The position numbers were made by a program, and so were the translations under genes. Below are positions 6,534-41,689 of a DNA stretch of 41,689 nt, piece by piece; within the stretch, counting starts at the first letter, position 1; every line of letters starts with the position of its first letter. The DNA lies in the NCBI GenBank assembly GCA_949294395.1, contig CASFGU010000031.1:1-41689 (forward strand). Reading direction: 5' to 3'. Source of the DNA: an uncultured bacterium (lineage in GTDB: Bacteria; Cyanobacteriota; Vampirovibrionia; Gastranaerophilales; Gastranaerophilaceae). The notes under the pieces were generated by a model, which saw only the letters and a program-made list of their open reading frames with translations, did not search any database and was not told where the DNA came from.

Positions 6534-7057
6534 AACTTCAGACCTCTCAGAATTGCGCAGAGCGTTTTGGCGTCGCTGATTTCGCCGGATTTAATCATGT
6601 TATAAACATCATTAACATTAAATTCCAGAGTTTTAAGGATTTCACCGTCATCAGGATGGGCGCCGGCAAATTCAAGTCCGGAAGCTTTGTAGAGGTATAA
6701 TTTTTCAGTGCTGTAGCCTGCCGAGGTGAATATATAACCGAGATTCTGCCAGTTTTTTGCGCGGTATCCGGTTTCTTCTTCAAGTTCACGAACTGCGGCA
6801 AGGTCGGGATCTTCACCTTTCTCAAGTTTGCCTGCCGGAAGCTCCAGAATAGTTGCTTTTAGCGGGTACCTGAACTGCTTTACAAAAAGCAGGGTGTTTT
6901 CATCTTTAAAAGCAAGAATGACAACCCCGCCTGAGTGGTGTACCACTTCACGGAAGGATTTTTTGCCTGTAGAAAGCTCTACCTCATCGCGGCATACCTT
7001 TATAATTCTGCCTTCATAAACACATTCTGAACTTAATGTTTTTTCTTCAAAATTCAT
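6530..7057 (-). CDS. NUDIX hydrolase, ADP-ribose pyrophosphatase type
   Basis: A 175-residue NUDIX enzyme, most like NudF/ADP-ribose pyrophosphatase, which hydrolyses ADP-ribose and related sugar nucleotides to AMP and sugar phosphate. The NUDIX box follows the GX5EX7REUXEEXGU pattern exactly: Gly of GKLEKGE, then RELEEETGY, at about residues 77-99. The preceding SGGVVILAF and FVKQFRYPLKATILELPAGKLE are typical of this subgroup. It heads a two-gene operon with the overlapping HAD phosphatase, consistent with a shared nucleotide-sugar salvage or clean-up role (inferred). Confidence 0.9.
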   Translation of the reverse strand: MNFEEKTLSSECVYEGRIIKVCRDEVELSTGKKSFREVVHHSGGVVILAFKDENTLLFVKQFRYPLKATILELPAGKLEKGEDPDLAAVRELEEETGYRAKNWQNLGYIFTSAGYSTEKLYLYKASGLEFAGAHPDDGEILKTLEFNVNDVYNMIKSGEISDAKTLCAILRGLKL

Positions 7058-7109
7058 ACTAACCCTCTTTTAATATATTTTAGCATAAATATTTCATGAA
7101 CCGGTGATA

Positions 7110-7138
7110 TTGATAATTAATAATATTTCCTGTATAAT
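7110..7138 (+). promoter_or_regulatory. sigma-70 promoter of the 24-aa peptide gene
   Basis: TTGATA at 7110-7115 and TATAAT at 7133-7138 with an exact 17-bp spacer, close to consensus. Transcription would start near 7145 and run to the right, between two minus-strand genes. Confidence 0.75.
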
Positions 7139-7160
7139 AATACCGAGGGTAAGTTCCAAT

Positions 7161-7210
7161 CACCTCCCCTGTCACATACAGTATACGAAGACAAAGACAG
7201 AAAGGAGGTG
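7161..7210 (+). promoter_or_regulatory. hairpin that masks the ribosome binding site
   Basis: CACCTCC (7161-7167) pairs with GGAGGTG (7204-7210), the Shine-Dalgarno of the 24-codon gene. CTGTC (7169-7173) pairs with GACAG (7196-7200), with a small internal loop between the two stems. The fold would close the start site until opened by processing, a ribosome, or another RNA. This layout is typical of type I toxin mRNAs and of translationally controlled leaders. Confidence 0.7.
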
Positions 7211-7214
7211 GAAT

Positions 7215-7289
7215 ATGAGGAAACAGATAATAAAAGATGCCCTAGGGTTAATAGGACATCTTTTACAAATTATTTCAATCTTCATATAG
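7215..7289 (+). CDS. 24-aa hydrophobic peptide with masked start site (type I toxin-like)
   Basis: A 24-codon frame from ATG 7215 to TAG 7287-7289. The peptide begins MRKQIIKDALGL and ends HLLQIISIFI: a basic amphipathic start followed by a hydrophobic tail, the pattern of small membrane-active toxins. AGGAGGTG sits 4-5 bases before the ATG, one of the strongest ribosome binding sites in the window. An ATG at 7104 opens the same frame but lies upstream of the -10 box and is rejected. Inside the gene, AAAAGATG (7232-7239)/CATCTTTT (7257-7264) plus CCTA/TAGG form a further hairpin. No known family is recognised. Alternatives are a leader peptide or a holin-like peptide. I saw no antitoxin RNA promoter on the opposite strand. 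Confidence 0.6.
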   Translation: MRKQIIKDALGLIGHLLQIISIFI

Positions 7290-7339
7290 GGAACGAAGAA
7301 CGGGCTAGAAGGTAACGGCTTTTAGTCCGTTTCCCTATA
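7285..7339 (+). terminator. long 3' hairpin of the peptide transcript
   Basis: Outer arms TATAGGGAA (7285-7293) and TTCCCTATA (7331-7339); inner 12-bp arms 7300-7311 and 7319-7330 (ACGGGCTAGAAG/CTTTTAGTCCGT, two G-U pairs) with loop GTAACGG. The stop codon lies in the outer stem. The sequence after it is AT-rich but lacks a strong T tract, so it may stabilise the 3' end as well as terminate. Together with the promoter it defines a transcript of about 195 nt. Confidence 0.6.
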
Positions 7340-7385
7340 TTTATATTATATCGTAATTTTAAAATATTTCAACCCTTTAAAATCT

Positions 7386-7681
7386 GGGAATTATATACAA
7401 GTTTCCACTAAATAAGCTTAATACTGTCATGCTGAACTTGTTTGACAAAGCGAACCAAAATTTTTGTCATCCTGAACTAGTTTCAGGATCTTAAAAATTT
7501 TGCGTGAGCCTGTCCTTGCGAAGTGCAGCATCTCTACATAAAGAGACCCTGTCGCCAGGAGTCATTTTGCTCGAAAACAAGTTTTCGGCAAAAGAAGGCA
7601 AACGAGTTCAGAGACTGCACTGAATTTATTTCAGGGGTGACAATTTCGATATTGTTTAGTGTAAACTTGTATATAATTCCC
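7386..7681. mobile_element. MITE copy 1 (296 bp), 8-bp target duplication
   Basis: Terminal inverted repeats GGGAATTATATACAAG... match at both ends over about 26 bp with one mismatch. TAAAATCT flanks both sides (7378-7385 and 7682-7689) as a target duplication. There is no coding capacity. The inside holds palindromic units of the type CCTGAACT-AGTTTCAGG. It shares its core with copies at 20597-20803 and 37839-38062 and with a fragment at 35006-35104. Compared with the 37839 copy it carries extra sequence around 7550-7620. The right end supplies the last base of the stop codon of the MBOAT gene. Confidence 0.85.
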
Positions 7682-9081
7682 TAAAATCTGAAATAGATAA
7701 AAGGATTGTATGTTGATGCGGCAATGGCAGCAGTTGAGAGGATGAACAGGATTATAAGCCAAATATTTACAATACTTCTCAGAAATTTTCTTTCCTGTTT
7801 AATCTCAAGGATTTTTGAGAATACCGGCATGGCGCATACAACCGCGATTATAAAGGTCAAAACTTCCACTGTATCGCCGTAATAGCTTATGCCGTAAGAT
7901 ATATCATGAACTTTGACGAGCCCGAACATATTTTTAATATAAGTGAGAGCATAGTGCATATTGTCAGCCCTGAACATTACCCAGCCGAGCACAAAAATGA
8001 AAATGGTGTACAGGTGTTTCAGGAAGTTTATAAAAGGTTTATCTGTTTCTTTATGCCAGCCGGTCATTTTTTCAAGAATTATAAAAAATCCGTTCCAGAG
8101 CCCCCAGAATATGAAGTTCCAGCTTGCGCCGTGCCACAGACCGGTTAAGAAAAATACTATTGCAAGGTTTATATATGTGCGGTTTTGGCTAATTCTGTTG
8201 CCTCCGAGCGGTATGTACAAATACTGTTTAAACCAGGAGGAAAGCGATATATGCCATCTCCTCCAGAATTCGGTTATGGATTTTGAGATATACGGATAGT
8301 TGAAGTTTTCCATAAATCTGAAACCGAAAATTAACCCCAGACCGATTGCCATATCTGAATACCCCGAAAAATCATAGAAAAGCTGCATGGTGTAAGCGAG
8401 ACTTCCAATCCATGCGACAAGCGGACTAAATGTATCAGGTGCCTGAATAAAGATTTTATCGGCAATCGCCCCCATTGTATTTGCAATGAGCATTTTTTTA
8501 GCAAGTCCGATGATGAACCGTTTTACACCAATATCAACTTTTTCAAAATTTACTTCTCTTGAATCAATCTGTTCCGCAACATCGTGGTATTTAACAATAG
8601 GCCCTGCAATAAGCTGCGGGAAAAGACAAATATATAAAGCCAGTTTATAAACATCTTTTTGAGCTTTGCACTCTCCTCTAAAGACATCAATAAGGTACGA
8701 CATTGCCTGAAATGTATAAAAGGAAATTCCTATTGGCATAATTACTTTGATAAAATCAATATTTGTATGGAAAAGGGCATTAATATTTTCAAGGATAAAG
8801 TTAAAATATTTGAAATAGATTAAAAATCCGAGGTTTACAACGACAGTAAGAACAAGTGTAAGTTTCTTTTTGAGAGGGTATTTTTCAATCAGCAGTGCGC
8901 CGAGATAGTTAACCATAATAGTGACGAGCATAATAGCAAGGTATCTTGGTTCTCCCCAGGCGTAGAACAGGATGCTTGCAATCAATAAAATCGGGTTATG
9001 AAGTTCTTTTCTTGCAGCTAAATACAGGAAACACACAACCGGTAAAAATACATATATAAAACTCATTGAACTGAATAACAT
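7681..9081 (-). CDS. MBOAT family O-acyltransferase
   Basis: A 466-residue polytopic inner-membrane protein with about ten hydrophobic segments, of the AlgI/DltB-like membrane-bound O-acyltransferase class. It would pass acyl (usually acetyl) groups across the membrane for modification of a surface polysaccharide. The conserved stretches are FDFSGYSDMAIGLGLIFGF-type (here YDFSGYSDMAIG near residues 241-252), FWRRWHISLSSWFKQYLYIPLGG near 279-301 and GLWHGASWNFIFWG near 328-341, whose His is the likely catalytic residue. Its start shares one base with the stop of the AlgJ-like gene, so they form an acetylation pair. A MITE has inserted exactly at its stop codon (TAA to TAG, same protein). Confidence 0.93.
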   Translation of the reverse strand: MLFSSMSFIYVFLPVVCFLYLAARKELHNPILLIASILFYAWGEPRYLAIMLVTIMVNYLGALLIEKYPLKKKLTLVLTVVVNLGFLIYFKYFNFILENINALFHTNIDFIKVIMPIGISFYTFQAMSYLIDVFRGECKAQKDVYKLALYICLFPQLIAGPIVKYHDVAEQIDSREVNFEKVDIGVKRFIIGLAKKMLIANTMGAIADKIFIQAPDTFSPLVAWIGSLAYTMQLFYDFSGYSDMAIGLGLIFGFRFMENFNYPYISKSITEFWRRWHISLSSWFKQYLYIPLGGNRISQNRTYINLAIVFFLTGLWHGASWNFIFWGLWNGFFIILEKMTGWHKETDKPFINFLKHLYTIFIFVLGWVMFRADNMHYALTYIKNMFGLVKVHDISYGISYYGDTVEVLTFIIAVVCAMPVFSKILEIKQERKFLRSIVNIWLIILFILSTAAIAASTYNPFIYFRF

Positions 9082-10778
9082 TATTTTTCCCCGCCATATA
9101 ATTCACTAAATACGTTTATACCGTTGCTTTGTATAACTATAATCATAATATCCGGTTTAAACTCCAGAATTTCCTTTTCCCATCGCGACATTTTGAATTC
9201 CGGAGGCTCAAAAGAATTATTAATCCGGCGTTTTTTAACTTCTTTAAATGTATATCTCAGAAATAAATAAAGATTTTCACTGAAAGAGGTGCCTATTATG
9301 TAAGCCTTCTCCGGATTTCCGTAAGGAAAGAACGAATCTGCAGAAGCTCTGCTATCGTGTGTTACGATTTGCAATTTGTCAGCGAATTTACTCTCATAAG
9401 AAGGGTAGAGAGTGTTGTTGTTTTTTATGCTGATACGCATTGTATTGTATTCATGCCCTTTATTGAAATAAGTTCCCGGGTAATCGGTTCTGGTGAATTT
9501 CTTTTTTTCAATATTAAAGTCGTCATCATTCAGAATTTTTATATCCGGAAAATCTTTTTTAATATTTTGCATTAAAACTCTGTAAGCAGAATAGGCGCCG
9601 TATTCAGACCAGTGCGGATCTCCTTGCGGGAAAGCATATTCTTTTTTGGCATCTTCCTGCATTTTTTCCAAAGGATAAGTTACCATTTTTCTGCCGGAAG
9701 ATTTATTTATGTATTCTTCAAATTTTTTGCCGGTATTAAACTTGATTTTATAAGGATAAATCGCATCAGGATAAACCTCCCCTTTCACGGGAGCAAGAAC
9801 AATATATAGATTTATCCCGTTTTTATTGCAAAAGTCCTCCAGTTTTTTAATATTTTTTTCATAAACCGTAAAATTTTTGCTCAGGTCACCGGTACTATGC
9901 CATTCTGTTGAAAAAGCCCACCGAGTTTTTTTGTTGTAGTAATATTCACCCTGATTGTATATATAGCCGGTGAGTAAAAATCTGAGTTTGTTATACAGGT
10001 GTATAATCGAAGTACGGCCGAAAAATCTGTCCGAAAACCAGCTGTTGAAATCCTTACCGAAGTTATAATTTATTTCATTTTTTGTAATAAATGGCTTATA
10101 TTCCGCAAGTTTCCGGTTTTCCCCTTTGTTGTAAATTTCATCATTTATTTTCAAAGCCGGCAGGATAAGCAGTACAAAAAATACCGTAAGAAATAAAATT
10201 TCAATTCGGGATTTATTTTTTACGCTTTTAAAATCCGCCGCATAGGAGGTCAGTTTATAGGCAAGAAGATAGCTTAAAATAAGGATTATAGTCAAAACTT
10301 TTGCATCAAAAACCGGTTTTGGAACTATATTAAGTTTTTCTTTTGAAAACAGCTGTGAAAAGTTTGTCAGATCAGTAATTAAAATAGAATTTTTGTCAAC
10401 TTTAAATGAACATGAATTTGCATAAAATTGTTTCAGGTCAAGAGTATGTCCTCCAACCTTGATATTACGGAGCCTGAGCCCCCCCCCCCCTTCCTGAAAG
10501 TCTTGTCTGGCAATGATTTGAAACCGTTTAGGGTGTTTCGCTTTATAAACTGGTATTGTAATTTCAGATGTTGTATCCAAATTAACTTCTAACTTTGCTT
10601 TATTGTTTCTGGAAAACAAATCGTCGTCTTTTTTGTTTAAGACTATTTCAAAAGTGGTCTGTCCTTTTCCTTCTGCTTCAAAAGTAACGTTCACGGGTTC
10701 TCTGTACAACCAGTACGGACTGCTTAACCCCGCAGCAATCCCCGTGATGACAATACTTAACAAAACTCTCTTTTTCAT
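9081..10778 (-). CDS. AlgJ/AlgX-like SGNH-fold O-acetyltransferase with G12 tract
   Basis: Probably the extracytoplasmic partner of the MBOAT protein, transferring acetyl groups to a polysaccharide. A TTG at 10814 directly follows the upstream stop, but ATG 10778 (MKKRVLLSIVITGIAAG, a signal-anchor) is the likelier start, giving 565 residues; neither has a clear ribosome binding site. Order of parts: N-terminal hydrophobic segment, a beta-rich domain (about 25-160), two hydrophobic stretches (about 160-180 and 190-210), then the AlgX/AlgJ-like domain with FNSWFSDRFFGR, GDPHWSEYGAYSAY and GTSFSENLYLF. The DPHW and GTSF elements match the Asp-His and Ser blocks of the family. A run of 12 G residues encodes four glycines near residues 97-100, so a slip of one base would end the protein before the catalytic domain. 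Confidence 0.8.
   Translation of the reverse strand: MKKRVLLSIVITGIAAGLSSPYWLYREPVNVTFEAEGKGQTTFEIVLNKKDDDLFSRNNKAKLEVNLDTTSEITIPVYKAKHPKRFQIIARQDFQEGGGGLRLRNIKVGGHTLDLKQFYANSCSFKVDKNSILITDLTNFSQLFSKEKLNIVPKPVFDAKVLTIILILSYLLAYKLTSYAADFKSVKNKSRIEILFLTVFFVLLILPALKINDEIYNKGENRKLAEYKPFITKNEINYNFGKDFNSWFSDRFFGRTSIIHLYNKLRFLLTGYIYNQGEYYYNKKTRWAFSTEWHSTGDLSKNFTVYEKNIKKLEDFCNKNGINLYIVLAPVKGEVYPDAIYPYKIKFNTGKKFEEYINKSSGRKMVTYPLEKMQEDAKKEYAFPQGDPHWSEYGAYSAYRVLMQNIKKDFPDIKILNDDDFNIEKKKFTRTDYPGTYFNKGHEYNTMRISIKNNNTLYPSYESKFADKLQIVTHDSRASADSFFPYGNPEKAYIIGTSFSENLYLFLRYTFKEVKKRRINNSFEPPEFKMSRWEKEILEFKPDIMIIVIQSNGINVFSELYGGEK
10479..10490. repeat. C12 (G12 on the coding strand) homopolymer inside the AlgJ-like gene
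   Basis: Twelve consecutive C on the plus strand, in frame as GGG x4 in the gene. G tracts of this length are prone to slipped-strand changes, and at this length the gene is open. Confidence 0.9.
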
Positions 10779-10814
10779 ATAGTAAATTTTACTATGCTGA
10801 ATAAGCACTGTCAA

Positions 10815-11984
10815 TCAAAGAGCGCGGATAATGGATTTGATATTTTCGTCGGTAATTTTCACCAGCGCAACTGTTTTTGCCGTATCATCGAGTGAATTCA
10901 GGCGTTTGAGAGTTTCTGCTGTTTTCAGGATGATTGTCTGGTTGCTGCATTTCAATAGTTCTCTTATTGCAAGCAAATCATCTGAAAAATCAAGCGCCGT
11001 ATAGACAAAATGACTATCTTCATTCAGTTCTGCCGTTACAATGCGCGTAAGCTGTTTTTTATTAATTCCCTGAAGAAGCCTTTTTATTCCGTGGATTTCG
11101 TTTTTTGTTTCTTTATCTTCATCAAAGAGGTATTCATCGTTTTCTGTCAGGGTTTCAAATTTTTCCTGCGCGTTCAGCAGAACGGCTGCTATTTTGCTGT
11201 CGGGTTCTGCTGATATAAGGTTTTCAAAAACTTCTTTCATTTCAAAATCCAGAACGAGCGCGGGGCTTAGAATTTCACCGAGACCGTTGATTATGTGGTT
11301 AATAGTCAGAAGCGCATCTTCATAATAATTATTCAGAAGTTCAAATAAGTCTGCAAGGTAAGGAATTTCACCGGCTATATTTTCTGCCATGGAAGATGTT
11401 TTCATTGCATTAAAAATTGCCCCCAGCGCCTCTTTATTTCCGTACATGACAAGAAATTTCACCGCTGAAAGTTTTTCAAAATCGTCATCTGACTTTAGTT
11501 TTTCAAGAGCTTTGTTGTATGAAACTTCATCCTGAAACATCCCGAGAGTTGCTGCGCAGTTTGCATTGAGGCTGTCATTGTCAGAATATGCGTTTTCTCT
11601 CAAGCAGTCAAGCGCAAGCGGATCCTGAATATATGAAAAATACTTTGCACAGTACGTTTTTTGCGCGGTAGTGCCTGTTTCAAATATTTCAAGAATTTCA
11701 TCGGTCAAATCTTCATCTGCATACTTTGCCAGAGCCGAAACAATTGCTTCATCATAATAAGGTGAATAATAATTGAAAAATTTCAGTAGGTTTTTATAAT
11801 TAGTTTCGCTGCAGGCATTGTAAATCCGCTGTGCAACGTTCTGCTTAACAAAATCAAACAGAAAGTCGTCACTATCAGTGAGTTCTTTAAATAATACCGC
11901 ATCTGCATTAATAATCATTTCTTTTGCGGTCTGTTCGTAATCGTTTTTATTTTTCCCTGTAAGTTTTTTAAGTTTATCGTCCAT
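10815..11984 (-). CDS. HEAT-repeat-like helical protein
   Basis: A 389-residue, acidic, all-helical protein with repeated helix pairs of the HEAT/armadillo type, for example DEDLTDEILEIFETGTTAQKTYCAKYFSYIQDPLALDCLRENAYSDNDSLNANCAATLG split over about residues 90-150 and EKLSAVKFLVMYGNKEALGAIFNAM near 172-196. No catalytic motif, signal peptide or membrane helix. HEAT proteins usually act as binding scaffolds; the partner is unknown. Its stop is followed with no gap by the TTG of the AlgJ-like frame, so it is probably co-transcribed with the acetylation genes. A conserved role in envelope assembly is possible but only inferred. Confidence 0.7.
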   Translation of the reverse strand: MDDKLKKLTGKNKNDYEQTAKEMIINADAVLFKELTDSDDFLFDFVKQNVAQRIYNACSETNYKNLLKFFNYYSPYYDEAIVSALAKYADEDLTDEILEIFETGTTAQKTYCAKYFSYIQDPLALDCLRENAYSDNDSLNANCAATLGMFQDEVSYNKALEKLKSDDDFEKLSAVKFLVMYGNKEALGAIFNAMKTSSMAENIAGEIPYLADLFELLNNYYEDALLTINHIINGLGEILSPALVLDFEMKEVFENLISAEPDSKIAAVLLNAQEKFETLTENDEYLFDEDKETKNEIHGIKRLLQGINKKQLTRIVTAELNEDSHFVYTALDFSDDLLAIRELLKCSNQTIILKTAETLKRLNSLDDTAKTVALVKITDENIKSIIRAL

Positions 11985-12096
11985 AAAAATATTTTAGCAT
12001 AAATAAAGACGATAAGTTCTGCCGGTGATGTCGGTCGGGCATACCTGCCCTACAATAAAGTAAAAACATAACTTTTTATCTCCTTTATTTAACAAT

Positions 12097-12125
12097 TTGC
12101 ATAAAAAACATTTTTATTCTAAAAT
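12097..12125 (+). promoter_or_regulatory. promoter of the rpmF/fatty-acid cluster
   Basis: TTGCAT at 12097-12102 and TAAAAT at 12120-12125 with a 17-bp spacer, 86 bases before the first ATG of the cluster. The leader (about 12132-12205) is GC-richer than its surroundings and could fold. Confidence 0.5.
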
Positions 12126-12210
12126 TGGAATACTTCATGGAAAAGGTGGTCTGCGTCCGGTTTTAAACGCGTTCGCAGGCAGTGCCGCCGGAGTAGTTAA
12201 GGAGAAAATT

Positions 12211-12474
12211 ATGGCACAACAGTTTAATCCTCAGGGTTTAAACCCGCAGAATATTAAAAAAAGAATTTCAGTTCTCGTATTTCTGAAAGGTTCTACAGCA
12301 CCGCTTGTATTGTATGTGGAAAACCCGCAGGACTTGTACGCTGAATTGAACCAGCTTATGAAATCGGCATCGGCTGTGCTGGTTGAAAAAGAAACTCAGG
12401 GGCCGCTTAAAAAGGTTGCTTTTATTTCTAACCAGATAGCTGCTATAGCAATGCAGGAAGAACAGTACGTATAA
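12211..12474 (+). CDS. uncharacterised conserved-looking protein, 87 aa
   Basis: The ATG at 12211 is preceded by AAGGAG at 6 bases. A longer frame back to 12097 would overlap the promoter and lacks a binding site, so 87 residues are taken. The N-terminus is rich in Gln/Asn (MAQQFNPQGLNPQN). The rest reads as alternating strand and helix with VLVFLKGSTAPLVLYVENP near residues 21-39, suggesting a small alpha/beta domain. I know no function. It opens the yceD-rpmF-plsX-fabH transcription unit, so a link to ribosome or lipid synthesis is possible. Confidence 0.7.
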   Translation: MAQQFNPQGLNPQNIKKRISVLVFLKGSTAPLVLYVENPQDLYAELNQLMKSASAVLVEKETQGPLKKVAFISNQIAAIAMQEEQYV

Positions 12475-12501
12475 ATTTTTTCCGCCGTATTGAGGTATTT
12501 T

Positions 12502-12993
12502 ATGGAAAATTTTGTTTTAATTGAAGATATTGAAAATGCAAAAGACGGTATCCTTGAATATAGCTTTGAAGAAAATATTGAGGGTATTAATTCTGCTGCA
12601 CCCGTGAAAGCGGATTTGACTATAAAAAATCTCGGCGAGTTTGTGGAAGTATCCGGAAATGTTAAGACTATTTTGAACCTTGAATGCGACATTTGCCTTA
12701 AACCGTTCAGGTACGATATGGAATTTTTAATAGATGAAATATTTGCAAAAGACGCGCTGCTGGAGGATTACGGGCAGGAAATAGAAATTAAGGACGGACA
12801 GTTTGTTACAGATCTTAACGGAGCGGACAAAATTGATATTTATGACTTATTGTATCAATCTGTAATATTAAATATTCCAAATAAAAAAGTTTGTGGTATA
12901 AATTGTAGTAGGGATAATTTTCAAAAAGAAGAAGATTTGACCGATCCCCGGCTGGAAGTTTTCAAAAACATCCGGCTTGAGGAAAACAGGTAG
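12502..12993 (+). CDS. yceD: YceD/DUF177 family protein
   Basis: A 163-residue protein of the YceD (DUF177) family, which is nearly always encoded just before rpmF. It has been linked to large-subunit rRNA metabolism in plants and bacteria. Features: the central LNLECDICLKPFRYDMEFLIDE-type strand pair (near residues 56-77) and a second cysteine pair KVCGINC near 131-137, which together form the family's likely metal site. A TTG at 12490 is open in frame, but GAGG at 12492-12495 sits 6 bases before ATG 12502, so the inner start is used. rpmF follows 38 bases later. Confidence 0.85.
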   Translation: MENFVLIEDIENAKDGILEYSFEENIEGINSAAPVKADLTIKNLGEFVEVSGNVKTILNLECDICLKPFRYDMEFLIDEIFAKDALLEDYGQEIEIKDGQFVTDLNGADKIDIYDLLYQSVILNIPNKKVCGINCSRDNFQKEEDLTDPRLEVFKNIRLEENR

Positions 12994-13031
12994 AAATATA
13001 AGTAGTAGGAAAACATAAAGGAAAGACAAAA

Positions 13032-13400
13032 ATGGCAGTACCAAAGAAAAGAACAGGACATTCCGCACAGGGACACAGAAGAAGCAACTGGAAAGCTTTA
13101 AAACCGGAAACTACTAAATGCCCAAATTGCGGTGCAACAGTATTAACTCACACAGTATGTACAGCTTGCGGCACTTACAAAGGACAGCCGGTAAGCCTTA
13201 AAGACAGAAAAGAAGGCGCAGCTGTGAAAGCTAAACCGGTTAAAAAGGCTGAAGTTAAGGAAGAAGCAAAAGTTGAAGAAAAAGCTTCCGAAACAAGCGC
13301 TCCTGCTGAAGAGGCTAAAGTTGAAGAAGTAAAATCAGAAGCAGTTGAGGTAAAAGAAGAAGCTCCTGCTGAAGAAACTTCTGAAACAGAAGAAAAATAA
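13032..13400 (+). CDS. rpmF: ribosomal protein bL32 with long charged C-terminal extension
   Basis: Residues 1-58 are a normal bL32: the MAVPKKRTGHSAQGHRRS start, then a zinc ribbon with CPNC (about 36-39) and CTAC (about 49-52). bL32 normally ends near residue 60. Here 60-odd further residues follow, almost only Ala, Glu, Lys, Val, Pro, Ser and Thr (for example VEVKEEAPAEETSETEEK at the end), a low-complexity, probably disordered tail with a net acidic end. The ribosome binding site is AAGGAAAG. The position between yceD and plsX is the standard one. No frameshift is needed to explain the tail. Confidence 0.93.
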   Translation: MAVPKKRTGHSAQGHRRSNWKALKPETTKCPNCGATVLTHTVCTACGTYKGQPVSLKDRKEGAAVKAKPVKKAEVKEEAKVEEKASETSAPAEEAKVEEVKSEAVEVKEEAPAEETSETEEK

Positions 13401-41210: not shown

Positions 41211-41230
41211 AAAGTAAAGGAGATTAAACG

Positions 41231-41689
41231 ATGGAAAACGCAAGTATAGCAAGGATTTACGGGGGGGGGGGGCAAGTAGTTTAAGCTCCTTAACCGGCAC
41301 AGAACAAGGGTTGCAGGCAGCCGACAGAGGCAAAGCCTTTAGTTGGCGTGCGTTCTGGCGACGGCTGTTTGAGGAAAAATCCCCCCTAACCCAATTAAAA
41401 AAATGGGTAGTATCAAAGACCTCCCTTATTAAGGGAGGTGGCACGGTAGTGCCGGAGGGTTTTGTTAACCTTTCACCCCTTCCACCCTTCAACTTTTCAA
41501 CAGTTCTGCCTGTCGGATTAGTAAATCCGACCTACGCTGCTGAAGTGCCGGAGGGTAAACCCTCACCCGAATTTGTAAATTCGCAGCTGCTCATTAACAA
41601 ATTCTGCCCTCAGCACAAGGCATACAGGGTCACACGCTTCGCAGGGCTCAGCGGTACCCTTTGTATCACAAAGAAAGAGGGTAATAGCG
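41231..41689 (+). pseudogene. gene out of frame at a G12 tract, running off the right edge
   Basis: AAAGGAG at 41216-41222 lies 8 bases before ATG 41231. The frame reads MENASIARIYGGGG then meets a stop at codon 18 (TAA 41282-41284), because the tract has 12 G. With 10 or 13 G the frame would be open for the rest of the window, about 137 further codons with no stop. The downstream text begins ASSLSSLTGTEQGL and later passes through five palindromes (41419-41439, 41440-41453, 41512-41531, 41551-41564, 41568-41583). The product is not recognised, and the palindrome-derived parts may be non-native. It could be a phase-variable gene in the off state, a repeat-filled pseudogene, or a miscounted tract. 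Confidence 0.5.
41261..41272. repeat. G12 homopolymer ten codons into a gene
   Basis: Twelve consecutive G starting at codon 11 of the frame from ATG 41231. It is the same length as the tract in the AlgJ-like gene, but here the count leaves the gene closed. Confidence 0.9.

Follow-up and report, generated by a model that had tools for sequence, protein, structure and literature searches.

G-runs in the leaders of predicted type IV-like prepilin genes, mostly out of frame, in a gut family of the Gastranaerophilales

The gene start at the contig end

The window analysed here is the entire contig C31 (41,689 bp, with no sequence to the right of 41689) of a Gastranaerophilales MAG (non-photosynthetic Cyanobacteria; 2.11 Mb in 71 contigs), referred to below as G000. 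Its right end (41,216-41,689) carries the start region of a gene cut by the contig end, and a second G-run lies in a gene further to the left:

41216..41222, + strand: Shine-Dalgarno sequence AAAGGAG (AAAGGAGATTAAACG), the same as ahead of most other copies of the leader
41231..41260, + strand: ATG and ten leader codons (MENASIARIY), with 35 genome copies at no more than 3 mismatches
41261..41272, + strand: run of 12 G, where 13 or 10 are required for the pilin frame
41273..41289, + strand: 3' flank CAAGTAGTTTAAGCTCC, kept genus-wide; the AGCT found here lies on the G strand in relatives, in either gene direction
41275..41688, + strand: pilin frame, open over 138 codons, without a start of its own, opening with SSLSSLTGTEQG... 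and followed by the linker
41282..41284, + strand: TAA closing the current (OFF) frame of 17 codons
41440..41689, + strand: linker of interspersed repeats that match 55 further places in the genome, within and outside pilin leaders
10479..10490, - strand: second G12 run, in frame in an AlgX-like (SGNH) gene at 9081-10814 (PF16822, E=1.4e-14)

The initial annotation had described a Shine-Dalgarno sequence, an ATG and ten codons followed by exactly 12 G that close the frame after 17 codons; all of this was confirmed, with an ATG-to-run distance of 30 nt. The claim that one G more or two fewer open the frame holds as well, the open stretch covering 138 codons up to 41688 at the contig end. G-runs of at least 8 occur at two places in the window, for 0.21 matches expected from shuffling. 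The prepilin core of the gene lies beyond the contig end and the frame was traced there solely by homology; no contig overlapping the right end of the window was found in the genome, so the pilin of this particular gene cannot be assigned.

Prepilin genes with G-runs in the genome and its relatives

The genome contains 131 matches to the prepilin domain PF07963, 35 occurrences of the leader ATGGAAAACGCAAGTATAGCAAGGATTTAC (first 20 bases, at most 3 mismatches) and 19 of the 3' flank CAAGTAGTTTAAGCTC, and pattern searches also matched MAG BRZ_KD bin7 of the same genus, “Ca. Scatousia” MAGs and CAG:439 MAGs. In complete copies, the leader is followed by 18-200 linker codons, some of which belong to interspersed repeats, and then by the prepilin N-terminus FTLAEVLITLGIIGVVAAMTLP (FTLAEVLITLG), where the N-terminal methylation motif of PF07963 stands after a G/A together with a hydrophobic helix. 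A Pfam search on the ON copies, i.e. those in the pilin frame, returned N_methyl and in some of them also DUF6613. The linkers of the 19 complete copies are free of stops in the pilin frame but have many in both other frames, which bears out the earlier judgement that 137 open codons in the window are not due to chance. The window's own linker is common to three pilin-bearing copies, and in 3/3 it reaches FTLAEV in the frame predicted for the window; by homology, the frame thus continues into a recognisable domain (prepilin, PF07963), contrary to the refuting condition named in the initial annotation, a frame stopping soon past 41689 and lacking a homologue. Judged from these copies, the feature at the contig end is very probably the 5' end of a type IV-like prepilin gene, in the form of a run-bearing prepilin leader. 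Run and linker precede the predicted prepilin cleavage site and should be absent from the mature protein, which would account for the tolerance of repeats and homopolymers in this part. A single-sequence AlphaFold model of the mature domain was poor (pLDDT 40) with the exception of a helix at 33-78, and weak PDB matches were obtained to geopilin and to the PilA N-terminus. An internal start within the linker was considered and discarded: most copies lack an in-frame start with a good Shine-Dalgarno sequence near the pilin, and in relatives the pilin frame extends no more than a few codons upstream of the run.

The interspersed repeats occupy about 55 places in the genome, inside pilin leaders and elsewhere, and those in leaders are translated without stops in the pilin frame. 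Many contigs of G000 (e.g. C10, C15, C16, C43, C8 and C42) break off within or shortly past a G-run leader and many others begin a short way ahead of a pilin, indicating that the assembly breaks at loci combining a run and a pilin.

G000 harbors 72 runs of at least 9, ranging from 9 to 17 with a mode of 11-12, most of which sit 26-35 nt 3' of an ATG preceded by a Shine-Dalgarno sequence. The equal length of 12 in an in-frame and an out-of-frame gene had been taken as a sign of genome-wide switching; the genome-wide character of the phenomenon is borne out by these counts, but the equal length loses its force as an argument given such a spread. Seventeen of the 19 complete G-run pilins are OFF and two are ON; among the former, 14 need one G fewer and three need one more. 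Among copies of the window-type leader, all those with a readable run at the window's spacing of 30 nt are OFF; one C-run pilin is ON. As at contingency loci, a repeat run lies within the coding frame and its length decides between ON and OFF; likewise, differing lengths (G11 and G12) occur with identical flanks in G000, whereas runs in relatives are nearly fixed at 10.

Among 36 genomes of the family, the number of runs tracks that of pilins (rho 0.85), and runs are near zero in other families of the order. One genome from another family of the order (G027) has 88 prepilin matches and zero G-runs of at least 9, which represents a pilin expansion without runs. Outside the window's clade, the runs of two genera almost never depart from n=10. 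The genome pattern applied to clade 1 was biased to n>=10, and the fixed length was re-tested in a second genus and on an unbiased 397-kb contig (C1 of G059, 396,650 bp), where a length of exactly 10 holds for 45 of the 47 runs of at least 7, with no run of 9 or 11. All 32 pilins of that contig with a clear start (24 with a G-run and 8 with a C-run) would need one more base to enter the pilin frame, despite ATG-to-run distances from 19 to 32 nt, and a 0-frame stop lies directly 3' of the run; eleven run-less pilins have ordinary in-frame starts. Run pilins at positions 81027, 162832, 170823, 173187 and 368891 of the same contig have a longer leader type (ATGCCATG... / GTGTCTACGCACG...), without an obvious Shine-Dalgarno sequence.

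Summed over six clade-1 genomes, 94 pilins need one base more, none needs one fewer and about 6 are ON. A genome of a further genus (G048) has 28 OFF copies at n=10, four ON at n=11, one ON at n=10 and one OFF at n=11, so that the seven genomes together give 122 copies needing +1, none needing -1 and about 11 ON, mostly at n=11, the paralogues not being independent and chance figures being indicative only. ON and OFF alleles therefore both exist in the DNA, and a constant offset at a slippery run, the mark of recoding genes, is found in clade 1 and in G048. The window's own clade is less uniform in its offset, with one G fewer required by most copies. Judged by their reading frames, nearly all of the dozens to over 100 run pilins per genome in this gut-bacterial family are OFF.

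The orientation of the runs is also constrained. On the 397-kb contig, all runs have their G on one strand, and pilins encoded on the opposite strand have C10 (PPP) instead of G10 (GGG) in the leader; this replacement of G-runs by C-runs suggests that the run matters as DNA. In a further genome (G062), C-preceded runs switch strand only twice, and either side of the change that was clearly readable has them on the G-rich strand; the run strand of G048 matches GC skew in 6/6 segments. Neighbouring C-preceded runs lie on the same rather than on different strands in ratios of 47:2, 42:2, 16:0 and 21:5 in four genomes, A/T-preceded ones show no clear strand sharing, and G000 gives 5:2 on contigs too short to decide. 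The G of the runs in relatives is on the leading strand. On the G strand, the run is followed 3' by AGCT in 70 of the 86 pilins with a G-run and in 16 of the 20 with a C-run (background 4%). This is a DNA-level motif independent of coding direction; the flank of G048 differs from this type. Chi and KOPS are polar chromosomal motifs, G-rich, on the leading strand and switching at the replication arms, and the runs resemble them in being a G-rich leading-strand motif that switches at the arms. The runs differ in that their number follows that of pilins and is zero in some family members, which argues against a general chromosome function; a Chi/KOPS-like motif is further disfavoured by the near-absence of runs from relatives with few pilins. 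The proposal that the run closes the window gene stands; the switching mode that was proposed along with it does not fit the relatives as readily, where one length, one frame class and one strand are not predicted by simple random switching.

How the runs may act

On balance, we lean towards default-OFF phase variation through replication slippage. The run would lie in an N-terminal leader presumably cut off by prepilin peptidase, so that its length would affect the frame but not the mature protein. At G12, translation would halt after 17 codons and give no pilin; a replication slip to G13 (or two steps to G10) would join leader and pilin and turn the gene ON in the descendants. With the commonest length leaving nearly all pilins OFF, each cell may display a small, changing subset at its surface. 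A process at the level of replication would agree with the strand polarity. All genomes of the family have MutS, which speaks against loss of mismatch repair as a cause of hypermutability, and slippage need not be fast. The near-invariant n=10 of the relatives is sharper than at known contingency loci, and the same one-base offset throughout also fits programmed recoding; moreover, slippage alone does not account for the conserved 3' motif, and it is surprising that n=9 and n=12 are nearly absent.

The closest parallel is provided by the pilus genes of Bifidobacterium breve (bbr_0113 and bbr_1889), in which a default-OFF G10/G11 tract was proven to switch by replication slippage (PMC9187656). 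There too, a gut commensal has a pilin gene with a G10-G11 run shortly 3' of its start, with a consensus off by one and an ON state reached via a one-base slip. However, B. breve, an actinobacterium, has one or two such loci per genome, for sortase-dependent LPXTG pili, whereas the genomes described here have dozens to more than 100 type IV-like prepilins, with the run in a leader predicted to be cleaved, a replication-strand polarity and C-runs in opposite genes. Poly-G loci of Campylobacter jejuni and Neisseria similarly have coding runs of G8-G12, also in surface-glycan genes (PMC4965091, PMC4085013), but C. jejuni lengths spread over the whole of this range (PMC4965091), while the relatives studied here have nearly one length and nearly all pilins OFF. 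As cited in PMC4085013, which describes a mutational balance near G10, insertions dominate in C. jejuni at G8-G9 and deletions at G10-G11, from which an equilibrium near G10 would follow; a comparable balance could by analogy fix the consensus length in a large population. With type IV prepilins and pseudopilins (PF07963 N_methyl, some with DUF6613, PF20318), the genes share the FTLAEVLITLG N-terminus after G/A and a long first helix, and differ by repeat-made leaders of up to about 200 residues and by more than 100 copies per 2-Mb genome.

Programmed recoding, in which the genes are meant to be one base off and RNA polymerase or the ribosome slips at G10/C10 in a fraction of events to make all pilins at a low and regulated level from an unchanged genome, is possible but rather unlikely. 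It would account for the exact length, fixed at about that of the RNA-DNA hybrid (about 10), for the identical offset of 32/32 start-resolved genes of one contig and its direction (122 to 0), and for the 0-frame stop directly 3' of the run. It does not account for the polarity: RNA decoding offers no obvious part for the replication strand or for a direction-independent 3' motif. Against recoding also stand the mostly opposite offset of the window's clade and the existence of in-frame n=11 alleles. Recoding was formerly proposed for the B. breve pili (PMC5009743), a case that proved to be replication slippage (PMC9187656). Equally tentative is the idea that the run is a dedicated DNA element (C-G10-C[AG], a lineage-specific 3' motif, G on the leading strand, a length of exactly 10) outside ordinary random slippage, which a replication-coupled or recoding system would read or reset, keeping more than 100 pilins one base out of frame and releasing small subsets.

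Two further readings concern the OFF state itself. G-runs are hard to sequence, and the RefSeq G-tract length of B. breve differed from the real majority (PMC9187656), but assembly or sequencing error as the source of the OFF state, with a consensus off by one from runs that are truly in frame, is improbable: one clade would need a miscount of -1 and another one of +1, in-frame non-pilin genes with n=10 share a contig with OFF pilins, lengths of n=11 to 16 were called in other copies and genomes, and a separately made CAG:439 assembly likewise has n=10. It is likewise most doubtful that the out-of-frame pilins form an archive of silent cassettes, moved to an expressed locus by recombination or processing at the run and its 3' motif. 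Near-identical leaders do precede different pilins in G000 and the motif is fixed and oriented; yet every copy has its own Shine-Dalgarno sequence and start, recombination at the run would leave the frame unchanged because all copies have the same offset, and no expression locus was found.

The literature searched contained no paper on phase variation in Gastranaerophilales. If slippage-based phase variation is right, the frame-switched surface repertoire of this common uncultured gut lineage would rank among the largest known, and its switch would be an enlarged form of that of the bifidobacterial pili. The fixed length, single offset and leading-strand polarity raise testable questions, namely whether the slip occurs in DNA or RNA and what holds the run at ten.

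Runs in genes other than pilins

In-frame runs are also present in surface-glycan enzymes of G000 (AlgX-like, GT61, GT8/PIG-L, FkbM and PglD/ATP-grasp), a class that comprises classic contingency genes. In the window (7681-10814, - strand), the AlgX/AlgJ-like SGNH protein with the in-frame G12 adjoins an MBOAT O-acyltransferase, and the two likely form a polysaccharide O-acetylation pair that is possibly phase-variable. At L234, one G-run separates GT8 and PIG-L deacetylase domains (6999-8705, - strand) and another PglD/hexapeptide and ATP-grasp domains (11629-13188, - strand); slippage at these inter-domain runs could fuse or separate enzyme activities. A Cdc48-like AAA ATPase of G059 (C1:262382), not an obvious surface gene, has a G10 run close to its 5' end that is in frame with a GTG start. 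Finally, homologous starch-synthase-like proteins (L247:2-2242, - strand, and G059 C1:67056) have a run near the N-terminus that is translated as GGGG in one species and as PPP in the other.
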